Source of the DNA: Sulfodiicoccus acidiphilus
GTDB taxonomy: Archaea; Thermoproteota; Thermoprotei_A; Sulfolobales; Sulfolobaceae
NCBI RefSeq assembly: GCF_003967175.1
Contig: NZ_AP018553.1
Location: 930,001 to 994,000, forward strand
Length of the DNA stretch: 64,000 nt
Direction: 5' to 3'
The notes beneath the pieces were generated by a model. The model was not told where the DNA came from, made no database searches, and saw only the letters and a list, made by a program, of their open reading frames with translations. The translations under genes and the position numbers were made by a program. Shown here one piece after another: positions 9,000-60,732 of this stretch. Position 1 is the first letter of the stretch. Each line of letters begins with the position of its first letter.

Positions 9000-9602
9000 G
9001 TTATAAGCACTAAGAGACCTCAAAACTCCATAGATTCTAAATGATAGCACCACCTTTCTTGGGCCAAGGGTCTCGCGATTTAAGGGTGGACAGAATAAAT
9101 AAGGTGCAAATCTCCCCTTATTAACAACTTTTCGTTAGTTCTACGGGGCGCTAGCGTTCTGTCCTCTTCGTATATGATCAGCCTCGATTTATGAAATACA
9201 ATGCCTTTTTCGGTATTCGTCTCACAGTTTTGAGCTGAATACGTACGGGTAAACAAGGAGTTTACGTTGTGGCTTATTTCATATATGCTCAAGTTTCTTC
9301 AACATACCAGACTTTTTAATTCAATAGTAATAATGTATTAAGTAGGGGATTTAAGTTCTATTTCTTTGACTGACCTAGCATGCAGTTTACGAGTTTGCTT
9401 TGAGAGGAAGTTTCTTGAACTATTATAACTATAAACCAAAATTTATAGATAGATCCTTCTAGGGTTTTTAAATTCGGGTTCTTAAATTTGTGTAAATTTA
9501 CGGAGGACTATCCATTTCCGTTGGCTGAGTCTTACATCTTCTTTGAACCCACAATTTCTGCGAGAGTGGAAGTTGAAGTTACCATCTTCTATCGAGCTTC
9601 CT
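9000..9602. other. Intergenic, no gene seen
   Basis: About 600 bp after ogg. AT-rich with many stops in all frames; short open frames here have no recognisable similarity and one runs into the neighbouring repeat. I see no convincing RNA gene. It abuts the right end of the mobile element at 9603, so part of it is the flanking, guide-side sequence of that element. Confidence 0.5.
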
Positions 9603-9940
9603 CTGACTTCCTCTCCGCCCTGGAAGGGCGAGGGTTCCCTCCCAGAGGGATCGTCGTTCCCACCATCGGTTCGGGTTTACATGTCTCGTTTGGTGGGCAG
9701 TCGAGTGGATCAGAGATCCACTCCCATTTGAAGAGGAGGGGACTTTCACCCATTACGTCTAGTCCCTTAAGAGAAGAGAGACGATAGTTGCTCCTCCCAC
9801 AGTCCCGTTAAGCCCTCGATCGAGCTGGGGAGGAGCGTCGTTAGTACCACTAAGAGAAATTTTAACAAAGAAGTATAAATACAAGGGGGCTATCCGTCCC
9901 CGCCGTGAAGGGCGAGACTTTACGCCCCCTTTGAACCCCC
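9603..9940 (-). mobile_element. 338-bp non-autonomous IS605-family element, copy A
   Basis: Near-identical to 17336-17673 apart from a short central stretch (about 9768-9790). Read on the minus strand: a left-end hairpin (CTCGCCC...GGCGGGG) near 9895-9920, a TATA-like box near 9875, a core hairpin with stem GCTCCTCCC/GGGAGGAGC (9789-9836), the last ~20 codons of a tnpB-like gene (STAHQTRHVNPNR), and a right-end hairpin (CTCGCCC...GGGCGG) followed by GAAGTCAG at 9603-9610, after which A and B diverge. There is no transposase and almost no tnpB, so it needs proteins from elsewhere. The tnpB 3' part forms two strong RNA stems (9704-9711/9715-9722 and 9659-9665/9691-9697). Confidence 0.8.
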
Positions 9941-9959
9941 AATTTTTGTAAGCTACGTC

Positions 9960-17281: not shown

Positions 17282-17335
17282 GCTAAATCTAAGCTGGCAA
17301 GAGATCGCTAACATGGGCAATTCTTCTACAGTTCG

Positions 17336-17673
17336 CTGACTTCCTCCCCGCCCTGGAAGGGCGAGGGTTCCCTCCCAGAGGGATCGTCGTTCCCACCATC
17401 GGTTCGGGTTTACATGTCTCGTTTGGTGGGCAGTCGAGTGGATCAGAGATCTACTCCCATTTGAAGAGGAGGGGACTTTCACCCATTACGTCTAGTCCCT
17501 TAAAGGAAATCGAAGCCGCTGCTCGCTCCTCCCACAGTCCCATTAAACCTTAGATCGAGCTGGGGAGGAGCGTCGTTAGTACCACTAAGAGAAATTTTAA
17601 CAAAGAAGTATAAATATGAGGGGGCTATCCGTCCCCGCCGTGAAAGGCGAGACTTTCCGCCCCCTCAACCCCC
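17336..17673 (-). mobile_element. 338-bp non-autonomous IS605-family element, copy B
   Basis: Second copy of the element at 9603-9940, same orientation and length. It differs mainly at the central stretch (17511-17524) and at scattered sites; one of these (GATCTACT for GATCCACT) still pairs as G-U in the first stem. The right tip GAAGTCAG lies at 17336-17343. The left tip is at about 17660-17673, and the TATA-like TATTTATAC follows the left-end hairpin. It fills the gap between the wHTH gene and fibrillarin. No intact gene inside. Confidence 0.8.
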
Positions 17674-17718
17674 GACTTTGTAAAGGCTAGCGATGAAAGA
17701 GAGAGAAGAGTATACTCT

Positions 17719-40897: not shown

Positions 40898-42103
40898 ATG
40901 AAGAACGATGAGAGGGAGGAGAGTGAAGTACTACTAGAGAACTACAGAGTCCTACTACAGAAAGCATTGGACTGGTTATGGGATAGGACTAAGGTTGAGA
41001 GGAAAGAAGTGAAGAATGGTGAGAAAGCCACGAAGGTCAAAGTAACCTTACTAAAGAAGAAGGAGGTGTACAAGACGTTGAGGGACGAGTTAGAGAGGAT
41101 TAACGTACTAGCTTCCCACTACGTTGACGAGGCAATAAACGACGCTTATTCCGTGTTGAGGAGTTGGAGGAGGGCCGAGAAGGGAAAAGCGTTGAGGAAA
41201 CCTAGACTGAAGGAGGTTTACGTTAGGGTGAAGTCGACGCTTAGGAAGGTTGATGGTGAGAGCGTAAGGATCACCGTGAGACCTTACGAATACGTGAACT
41301 TCTCTTGGTCTCGCACTTGGTTTTCACGAAGAGTTAAAGGGCTTGAACTAGGTGAGCCCGTGATAAAGGAGGACAAGGTGTATTTACCGTTTCGTTACAA
41401 GTTACCTCGGTTTACTCCCATAGATTTCCTAGCAATCGATAGTAACCTCTACACGTTGGACGCATATGACGGAGAGAAGTTCGTCACATTTTCCTTGAAG
41501 GAGTTGTACAGTTTGAAGTATGGTGTGGAGTTGAAGAGGGGTAGGATACAATCTTTCGCTTCAAAGCACGGTAGGAAGGGGAAGGAGTTGTTGAGGAAGT
41601 ATTCCCATCGAGAGAGGAACCGCGTGTTGGATTACCTTCATAAATTCGTGAACAAGTTGCTGGAAATGTATCCCATTACGATGTTCGTCGTCGAGAAGTT
41701 GAATAAGCAGGGGATGTTTGAGGATGCTAACCGTAAGCTGTCCAAGAAGATTTCCAAGACCGTGTGGAGGTCAATTCATCGCGTTCTAAAATACAAGGCC
41801 CCACTTTACGGTTCCTTCGTTAAGGAGGTGAGCCCGTACCTCACGTCTAAGTCCTGCCCCAGGTGTGGACGGGTTTCCCGAAAGGTCGGCGGGACTTTCA
41901 GGTGTGGGAGGTGTGGGTTCACACTAGATAGACAGTTGAACGCGTCACTTAACATCTACCTCAGGATGTGCGGGTTTCCCCACGTCCGCGACATTCCACG
42001 GGTGTGGGTCGGGGTCACCCCGCTAAGGGGGCGGAGGGGTGTGAACGGGTTATCCCGGGACTCTGGTGAAGCCCAAGGGTTGAGGATCGATATTAAATTA
42101 TGA
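40898..42103 (+). CDS. tnpB: IS607 TnpB, RNA-guided nuclease, apparently intact
   Basis: Cas12f-like ancestor nuclease guided by omega-RNA. 401 residues. All RuvC acidic residues are present: D181 in LAIDSN, E266 in FVVEKL and D344 in LDRQLNAS, with the zinc finger C320, C323, C336, C339 between. ATG 40898 is the first start in the frame; the open frame extends a little upstream without a start. Longer than usual by an N-terminal basic helical region. Its partner tnpA is frameshifted. Confidence 0.9.
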   Translation: MKNDEREESEVLLENYRVLLQKALDWLWDRTKVERKEVKNGEKATKVKVTLLKKKEVYKTLRDELERINVLASHYVDEAINDAYSVLRSWRRAEKGKALRKPRLKEVYVRVKSTLRKVDGESVRITVRPYEYVNFSWSRTWFSRRVKGLELGEPVIKEDKVYLPFRYKLPRFTPIDFLAIDSNLYTLDAYDGEKFVTFSLKELYSLKYGVELKRGRIQSFASKHGRKGKELLRKYSHRERNRVLDYLHKFVNKLLEMYPITMFVVEKLNKQGMFEDANRKLSKKISKTVWRSIHRVLKYKAPLYGSFVKEVSPYLTSKSCPRCGRVSRKVGGTFRCGRCGFTLDRQLNASLNIYLRMCGFPHVRDIPRVWVGVTPLRGRRGVNGLSRDSGEAQGLRIDIKL

Positions 42104-42123
42104 AATCCTATGAAGCCCAAACC

Positions 42124-42470
42124 CCTAAAGCTAGCTATACTCTAGACTTAGACAAAATGGTTGTTAGGATAACAAGTGTTGGTAAACTTAAATTCTAGGC
42201 TATCCTGGGAACATCAAGGAGTACTTAAGCAGAGTTGGTGGCAGGCTAAAAAGCACGGTCTACTAATTGAGAATGTTAATCCTAAAGTTATCCTTAGGTA
42301 ACTTACCCTAAGTGTGGGCAAAAATTAGTGAAATTTCTCATCGTCGGTTTAAATGCTCTTATGGTTATGAGAATGATCGTGACGTTATAGTCATTATGAA
42401 CTTAAATGGGAGGGTTTCTCCGACACCCTCGACTGCCCCTCAGATGAGAGATGTAACTCCGAATCGGTGA
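42124..42470 (+). pseudogene. C-terminal fragments of IS605-type tnpB
   Basis: Begins with PKASYTLDLDKMVVRITSVG (the continuation of the piece ending at 40222). It then passes through frameshifts to WWQAKKHGLLIENVNPK, traces of the zinc finger, and the intact end [27 protein letters not shown] at 42468. The last 65 bp also form the two paired RNA stems seen in copies A and B (42410-42415/42425-42430 and 42438-42442/42468-42472). Confidence 0.7.
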
Positions 42471-42620
42471 GGAGAACTCTTCCAGGGCGGGGAGGGCCAG
42501 CAAATGAGAGACCACTGGAAAGAGGCACCAAGCACGCACTAACAGAACCCAGCGAGAAGTGGTGAACGTCGACGGAGAAGAAACCCTCAGTGGGCCATGG
42601 ACTATTAGAAGGGTGAGCCC

Positions 42621-42690
42621 TTTATAAACTAGCTTATAAGCCATTTAACATAGCTTATAAGAGGTGGGTAAAATATACCCTTATAAACCC
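42621..42690 (+). promoter_or_regulatory. tbp promoter with four TATA-like boxes
   Basis: TTTATAAAC (42621-42629), TAGCTTATAAG (42630-42640), the identical TAGCTTATAAG 21 bp later (42651-42661), and TTATAAACCC (42681-42690) just before ATG 42691. The middle box is at the right distance for a leaderless mRNA starting at GTG 42664. The third overlaps the start and could let TBP bind its own gene as a repressor. Confidence 0.6.
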
Positions 42691-43257
42691 ATGATCAATA
42701 TAGAGAATATTGTAGCGACAGTGACGTTAGAACAGGGGCTTGACCTCTATGCCATGGAGAGGAGCGTCCCAAACGTTGAGTACGATCCAGATCAATTTCC
42801 TGGACTAATATATAGGTTGGAGTCTCCAAAGGTGACCTCCCTTATATTTAAATCTGGCAAAATGGTTGTAACAGGCGCCAAGAGCACAGACGAGCTAATA
42901 AAAGCGGCAAAAAAGATAATCAGGTCTCTCAAGAGGGCTGGAATAAGCATAACTGGAAAATCGAAGATACAGATCCAAAACATAGTAGCCTCGGCCAATC
43001 TCCACCTTCACGTCAACTTAGATAAGGCTGCCTTTCTGCTTGAGAACAACATGTATGAGCCAGAACAGTTCCCAGGTCTCATATACAGGATGGATGATCC
43101 GCGAGTGGTGGTACTGATATTCAGTAGCGGAAAAATGGTAATAACGGGTGCGAAGAGGGAGGAGGAGGTCTACAGAGCAGTCAAAAGGATATACGATAAG
43201 CTCGTGGAGCTGGAATGTGTTAAACAAGTGGAGGAAGAGGGGGAGCTAGAGTTCTAA
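42664..43257 (+). CDS. tbp: TATA-box-binding protein
   Basis: General transcription factor binding the promoter TATA box. 197 residues with the two direct repeats characteristic of [21 protein letters not shown]...[32 protein letters not shown], and the second [19 protein letters not shown]...[31 protein letters not shown] (each shown in parts). It has an acidic C-terminal tail (EEEGELEF). GTG 42664 gives the family N-terminus ([13 protein letters not shown]); ATG 42691 would be shorter. Convergent with and overlapping the kinase gene by 12 bp. Confidence 0.97.
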
Positions 43258-44432: not shown

Positions 44433-44846
44433 CTGGACTCTGTCGTGAAAAGTCTGAAATCCGTTGGGAGAAGATTTAAGTTGCGAAATAAGGAAAGTCT
44501 TTCTCTTTAGGGTATTAGCAATAATAATTTAAAAATGAACTCTATTCTCAGTGGCACTATTGCTCCTCTTAGGCTCGAAGTAGGGCTCTATGTGAGTGAG
44601 GGAAAAGTGAGCCTATCTCTTCTTATGGGATCCAGAGGCAGACGAGGGATCTCGTAGACTTGGTGAATTGTCGACCAACAAATGAGGTGGTTCTCGGTGT
44701 CTTGCCACTTAACCGGGTTTATAACCTCGAAACCATGTGGGAACTATGAACCGTCTGGAAGAGAACCTTTTCAGTGCAAGGAGAAGTCAACTACATTAAT
44801 CCCTTTTACGGTTTCGGTTTTCACCCAACTACGTCTTCATGCAGTG
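44433..44846. other. Intergenic, no gene recognised
   Basis: 414 bp between the small basic protein and the Pus10-like gene. Stops occur in all frames. A TATA-like TTTATAAC lies at 44719-44726 and a few short hairpins are present. I see no RNA gene or mobile-element end with certainty. Confidence 0.5.
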
Positions 44847-60316: not shown

Positions 60317-60732
60317 TGTCGAGAACTGTCTTCAATATGGTTGAGCTTTAAAGCGAGAAGACGAGGTGTTACAAAAAGGGGTTAAGGGGAAGCTTCACCT
60401 GTGGGGATGTACAGGTCCTAGTACGAGTTTAAACATCCTCGGAAAATCTAAGTGATGTGCACGTTCCAGCCCAATTGAGGAATCGGGCTGAGGGGCTATA
60501 AAACTTCGTCCCTTGGGATCTCGATCAACCATTGGATCCCCCTCGGGATCGTCGACTTCCTTCAAGTGAGGTGTATCTGAACGACCAATTGCTTGATTGA
60601 GACGTAAAAACCCAAAGCAACGACGGGAAAGATTAAACCTCCTGAGAGGAACACCTCCAGATGGGGAGGAAGTCGGTTTCCATAACCTCCTTTAAGAAAG
60701 CTTGAAAATAGCGAGAGGACGATCTTCTAACC
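60317..60732. other. Intergenic with hairpin and orphan TATA box
   Basis: 416 bp between divergent rgy and the UPF0216 gene. The rgy TATA-like CTTTAAAG lies at 60344-60351. A hairpin CAGCCC/GGGCTG is at about 60468-60490, and a good TATA box CTATAAAACT at 60496-60505 points right, which would start a transcript near 60524, about 210 bp before the next gene. A small RNA or a long leader is possible. Confidence 0.45.

Follow-up and report, generated by a model that had tools for sequence, protein, structure and literature searches.

A conserved RNA fold carried mostly by tnpB-less MITEs of Sulfodiicoccus acidiphilus is a predicted TnpB omega-RNA scaffold and probably corresponds to HgcC

The window, a 64,000-nt stretch of the Sulfodiicoccus acidiphilus genome, contains two look-alike stretches that are best explained as copies of a real, conserved RNA, carried mostly by solo miniature elements (MITEs) with a promoter-like box. 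The fold is very likely the omega-RNA scaffold of TnpB. Both tnpB elements and solo MITEs encode it, and the latter would provide TnpB with guides in trans. The genome searched was a single contig of 2,353,189 bases, in which the window corresponds to C1:930001-994000.

The two stretches, copy A (9722-9650, minus strand) and copy B (42405-42475, plus strand), were compared base by base. The original prediction had given them the same length; the gap-free alignment was borne out, with 54 of 78 positions identical, but the stretches as delimited were 73 and 71 bases long, respectively. Stem 1 showed two double changes (T-A to G-C and G-C to T-A), not the three that had been counted, and one pair of copy B was broken (T.C), which had been missed. 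The G-U change claimed for stem 1 of copy B was not seen in this comparison. Stem 2 showed both of the double changes described for it (A-T to C-G and C-G to T-A), together with another broken pair of copy B that had escaped notice (C.A). The inner motif GAGA.ATGTAA..CCGAA, said to be kept, was real in both stretches. The compensatory changes between copies A and B were therefore correct in kind but not in count, with four double changes instead of five and two broken pairs overlooked.

Copy A had been placed at a tnpB 3' end. It was found to belong to a tnpB-less MITE of the IS200/IS605 type with at least 40 copies in the genome. This MITE is 345 bp long (9603-9947, minus strand), with sharp ends common to 36 aligned copies and unrelated flanks. 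It is preceded by the target tetranucleotide TTAC (9948-9951, minus strand), which is the predicted TAM, and followed by a variable 3' flank that would serve as the guide (9583-9602, minus strand, for the first 20 nt). A TATA-like box of the predicted MITE promoter, TATTTATAC, was identified by its match to the consensus at 9873-9881 (minus strand). The predicted omega-RNA scaffold of about 249 nt ahead of the guide (9603-9851, minus strand) consists of a 5' hairpin domain, stem 0, stem A, stem B, an extra hairpin and a 3' hairpin. Its tail, which includes copy A, was matched by our covariance model R1 at 9603-9735 (minus strand) with 142.6 bits and an E-value of 5.4e-33; this tail is also a training sequence of R1. 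A second copy of 344 bp is present in the window (17336-17679, minus strand), with TTAC at 17680-17683 and the guide at 17316-17335. At the Rfam gathering threshold, only tRNAs were matched across the window.

The genome search with the copy A region gave at least 40 matches over most of the query length, and 33 of the 40 listed were 91-100% identical. Most MITEs were 338-348 bp long, and the 36 delimited copies ranged from 315 to 348 bp. The 5' flank was TTAC in all 36 delimited copies and TTTAC in 20 of these. The right end was TCAG, and the next 20 positions were unbiased in the 36 copies except for few G at +1. The TATA-like box lay about 25 nt before a conserved AGTG. The longest open reading frames in the 36 copies encoded 5-49 aa, inside the range of shuffled sequence (13-103 aa), and there was no transposase gene. 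Joining the flanks of one copy (L035) gave a sequence that matched an uninterrupted paralogue in the same genome with no gap at the junction, and also, gap-free, a homologue in the other genome of the genus (a sister species). Another copy (L046) interrupts a tnpB, of which the window's own tnpB at 40898-42103 is the uninterrupted relative. None of these empty sites (own-genome paralogue, sister species, a tnpB) showed a target-site duplication. The fixed 5' TTAC, the sharp ends and the empty sites without duplication are marks of single-strand insertion of the IS200/IS605 type.

Directly upstream of the MITE holding copy A, the segment 9960-10250 (minus strand) resembles the right end of an element of a third type. 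It ends in CCCCGCCCTTAAGGATGGGGTAGTTCAC and lacks tnpB. Ends with TTCAC like this one also adjoin other TnpB loci of the genome (flanks of L006, L008 and L106). Guides of S. islandicus TnpB7 follow TTCAC (PMC11043419). Two further weak R1 matches were found in the window at 44674-44790 and 60558-60676 (both plus strand; 8.6e-5 and 1.3e-6, respectively). Both finish in the right-end motif and are probably decayed copies.

Copy B lies in a decayed putative omega-RNA at the right end of a tnpB-only element (42398-42500, plus strand; 96.7 bits with R1, of which it is a training sequence), and besides its broken pairs it has a shortened 3' hairpin. It belongs to a decayed, internally deleted tnpB remnant (42120-42470, plus strand) with broken frames and a TGA stop at 42468-42470, the final 49 residues of which are 67% identical to the intact TnpB of another element of the genome, L106. 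An intact tnpB of another TnpB family, encoding 401 aa (Pfam PF07282 and PF01385), was located at 40898-42103 (plus strand). It was ruled out as the owner of copy B, which lies 295 nt downstream of its stop, since its product is of that other family and about 26% identical to the TnpB of L106, the intact relative of the copy B element. Copy B alone folded no better than shuffled sequence (z -1.06), and the equivalent region of the intact element folded better than shuffles (z -4.70). A search of 41700-42700 against Rfam with an E-value limit gave no match because copy B is too decayed.

L106 (C1:1029900-1031700, minus strand) is an intact element of the kind that gave rise to copy B. It contains TTAC, a left-end hairpin, a TATA-like sequence, a 382-aa TnpB and an RNA-like tail. 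The TnpB gene (C1:1030130-1031280) matched PF07282, with the TNB domain above the curated cut-off and a sub-threshold OrfB match, and its stop codon sits inside stem B. The left-end hairpin and the TATA-like box are similar in the tnpB element and the MITE. Where the RNA is linked to a tnpB, the sequence coding for the TnpB C-terminus almost always stops 70 nt into the RNA model, an overlap of the kind expected of an omega-RNA. The original prediction that the tnpB 3' end folds as an RNA thus held for intact relatives, with a fixed overlap, but not for the window, where neither copy ends a working tnpB.

With the same tail, the 382-aa protein of L106 is a candidate cognate TnpB in the same genome. 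The extra hairpin of the MITE tail was seen in this genome only without tnpB. It was present in tnpB elements of other species and of Acidianus two-tailed virus 2 (L122, L123, L125, L157 and L245), so that a TnpB of the L106 type may or may not accept the MITE RNA. One intact Y1 TnpA was found in the genome, beside a further tnpB, in a different element whose end hairpins are similar to those of the MITE. The genome gave 44 TNB-domain matches versus this one intact Y1 TnpA, and most tnpB copies were decayed. Many tnpB copies would thus appear to depend on one transposase gene.

The conservation of the fold was analysed with R1, a covariance model of the RNA tail built on a hand-made structure. 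On alignment A1, RNAalifold paired the 3' hairpin wrongly, owing to a misalignment of the extra hairpin of the MITEs. R1 matched in 64 of 197 genomes of the order Sulfolobales, covering 29 of 74 genera. The covariation set contained 94 aligned matches, 92 of them distinct, and three weak matches were left out of the tree tests. Across the 92 distinct copies, which came from the present genome and further Sulfolobales, the given structure was 93% paired in an alignment that was fitted to the R1 structure and is hence biased towards it. Double-change cells numbered 173 versus 58.5 +/- 6.2 after shuffling, with 0 of 500 shuffles as high, and slid structures reached at most 30. Because shuffles ignore relatedness, compensatory events were also counted on a tree. 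About 13.5 single-branch compensatory double changes were found on the FastTree tree, versus a mean of 2.0 and a maximum of 6 when substitutions were shuffled among columns within branches, and a mean of 1.5 and a maximum of 5 when column counts were kept (100 simulations each). When each pair was tested separately by a G-test with APC against a tree-based null, none reached significance, likely because there were too few independent events. The expectation of covarying pairs was therefore upheld by the aggregate test of this R-scape-like approximation but not by the per-pair test. The fold is conserved by compensatory change, as had been proposed, and the structure is supported as a whole and not pair by pair.

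The full-length MITE RNA was aligned from 16 sequences of several genera, including one virus-borne copy. These gave 95% paired cells and 23 double-change cells, versus 7.9 after shuffling and at most 8 for slid structures. Stem 0 switched as a block in MITEs among G-C, A-U, U-A and C-G types.

An improbable alternative is that the MITE fold is a DNA structure only, composed of end hairpins read by TnpA and relics of tnpB coding sequence, with the RNA-like part as a passenger. The MITE copies, 91-95% alike, have spread recently, which means that much of their likeness is descent, and end hairpins are common to all elements, the MITEs carrying sub-terminal ones. However, stems 0, A and B are internal, away from the ends read by TnpA, and yet stay paired through changes across genera. 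The internal TATA-like box and the 5' hairpin domain are likewise kept across Sulfolobaceae genera, whereas passenger sequence should have decayed, as it did in copy B.

The possible targets of the guides were examined for two MITE copies by pattern searches of the genome for TTAC plus guide. No other genome site was found with up to 3 mismatches. The sole genome match of each tested guide was the element's own junction, where it is preceded by TCAG instead of TTAC, so that departure of the element would be required before the site is cut. A takeover of the solo RNAs by the host, for example to direct TnpB, or a repressor resembling it, to selected genes, is very unlikely. Solo copies do keep their form over several genera, and each genome holds many different guides, but the guides equal the insertion flanks, the two tested matched nowhere else in the genome, the solo copies showed no conserved location, and the high copy number and the empty sites fit a mobile element. 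Host-adopted guide RNAs were therefore rejected as the main explanation. Changes that merely follow the coding of the TnpB C-terminus, the outcome named beforehand as telling against a conserved RNA, can hardly account for the fold and were rejected as the full explanation, because although the region is coding in tnpB copies up to the stop inside stem B, the non-coding MITE copies have lost both the upstream coding sequence and that stop and carry amino acid replacements relative to tnpB while pairing stays, and their stem 0 changes as a block.

Taken as a TnpB omega-RNA scaffold, the fold suggests the following mechanism. In tnpB-bearing copies the RNA overlaps the tnpB 3' end, its last bases are the right end of the transposon, and the host flank directly downstream would be the guide. 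The commonest copies, including copy A, have lost tnpB and kept the left end, the TATA-like promoter, the RNA scaffold and the right end, so that each MITE would be an element encoding its own guide RNA. Its anatomy is the one expected of a stand-alone omega-RNA gene carried by a mobile element. The TnpA transposase of another element would move the MITE as a single strand into TTAC, and the MITE's own promoter would drive its transcription. TnpB supplied by a different element would bind the MITE RNA and cut sites consisting of TTAC and the guide. An excised donor locus, which again reads TTAC plus guide, would be cut, and repair from the sister copy would restore the element. The occupied locus would escape cutting, as TCAG and not TTAC then stands before the guide.

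The same RNAs are matched by the model of an orphan family of archaeal non-coding RNAs, HgcC (Rfam RF00062). With an E-value threshold, the HgcC model gave 41.6 bits for the L106 tail, where the gathering score is 50, 30.3 bits for a copy from Desulfurococcales, and 40.9 and 40.3 bits for loci labelled Archaeoglobales. The omega-RNA tails were aligned end to end over the whole model, including stem A, the 3' hairpin and the GGUCAG right end, although every match stayed below the gathering score. HgcC matches occurred in 36 of 200 Thermoproteota genomes; no match in these 200 genomes exceeded the curated 50 bits, the best reaching 48.6. Among 60 HgcC matches listed from seven genomes, 26 abutted the 3' end of a TnpB gene on the same strand, versus 0.08 expected from random placement (maximum 3 in 2000 trials), and one adjoined a TnpB on the opposite strand. 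As the seven genomes were taken from the HgcC match list, this is a test of position and not of frequency. In the genome of the window, all five listed HgcC matches without TnpB were tnpB-less MITEs. The M. jannaschii plasmid was searched for the founding HgcC, which was not there.

In T. kodakarensis, transcription of HgcC1-3 begins within transposase genes and runs the same way as these, and HgcC4-5 have no associated transposase (PMC4247193); the loci matched by the HgcC model share the genomic setting described there. The function of HgcC was called unresolved in 2017 (PMC5732400). Our search of the non-subscription literature found no paper linking HgcC to TnpB omega-RNA. Since the HgcC model matches these RNAs and its matches abut same-strand TnpB, HgcC is probably this omega-RNA. 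We lean, by a small margin, towards the fuller reading in which HgcC is the omega-RNA of archaeal IS200/IS605 TnpB and its transposase-less copies are guide-encoding MITEs, forming a library that would be used in trans and would retain the MITEs. HgcC would then gain a function, and a genome with about 40 MITEs would make a guide library for the TnpB of other elements. A parallel case is the orphan motif RAGATH-18, which proved to be the IS607 TnpB guide RNA (PMC11061315).

The predicted RNA resembles the known omega-RNAs or reRNAs of IS200/IS605 TnpB in overlapping the tnpB 3' end and the right end of the element (S. islandicus, PMC10640517; ISDra2, PMC8612924), and in having 3' hairpins, a variable guide directly downstream and an AT-rich left-end motif. 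3' RNAs of this kind, together with AT-rich TAMs, are used by S. islandicus TnpB to cut DNA (PMC10640517). Unlike known IS200/IS605 omega-RNAs, most copies here lack tnpB and have a promoter-like box and a 5' hairpin domain, and the motif is TTAC (mostly TTTAC) instead of TTTAA or TTTAT. Tying the fold to TnpB turns a repeat family without a known role into a testable RNA, with guide-encoding mini-transposons in several archaeal lineages. TnpB nucleases in these hosts would then obtain many guides from elements lacking a gene for TnpB, which would explain the persistence of protein-free elements. The claim is directly testable because S. islandicus is genetically tractable and its TnpBs already work as genome editors. 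In bacteria, Meers et al. in 2023 reportedly described tnpB-less IS605 relatives carrying guide RNAs.

Those bacterial relatives and the palindrome-associated transposable elements, or PATEs, a term used for Haloquadratum (PMC3119063), are like our MITEs short, protein-free kin of the IS605 type; the MITEs here differ in being archaeal, with high copy number and their own promoter-like box. SMN1, a MITE of 320 bp found in Sulfolobus islandicus, depends on ISC1733 (PMC3718332). By description only, it resembles the present MITE in size, host order, non-coding nature and use of a transposase from another element, the last predicted here; PMC3718332 mentions no guide RNA in SMN1, whereas the MITE here carries a predicted one. 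The sot RNAs of Halobacterium are likewise sense RNAs over the tnpB 3' end, but the passages of PMC12558985 consulted report no solo MITE form. The Rfam model sot0042 matched L106 weakly (20.3 bits, with a gathering score of 88).

The element type recurs in other lineages. The same MITE with the same 5' domain was found in several Sulfolobaceae genera, and Desulfurococcales have a separate solo lineage with another 5' domain and the same core and TTAC. A scan with a strict core pattern gave 46 stretches, including some in MAGs labelled Archaeoglobales, Methanodesulfokora and Marsarchaeota, whose contigs may be misbinned. The present genome contains a second MITE family of about 345 bp with three members that are 85-95% alike (L276, L277 and L278, at G000:C1:1418300-1419100, 712000-712800 and 1345000-1345800, respectively). 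These derive from the tnpA-tnpB element of the same genome, with the left end and a TATA-like region joined to the tnpB 3' end and the right end kept. Viruses carry both forms. Acidianus two-tailed virus 2 has a tnpB copy with the RNA tail, and a Sulfolobus spindle-shaped virus (OP999031.1, 168-532; L244) contains an intact MITE, over which four overlapping hypothetical proteins have been annotated.
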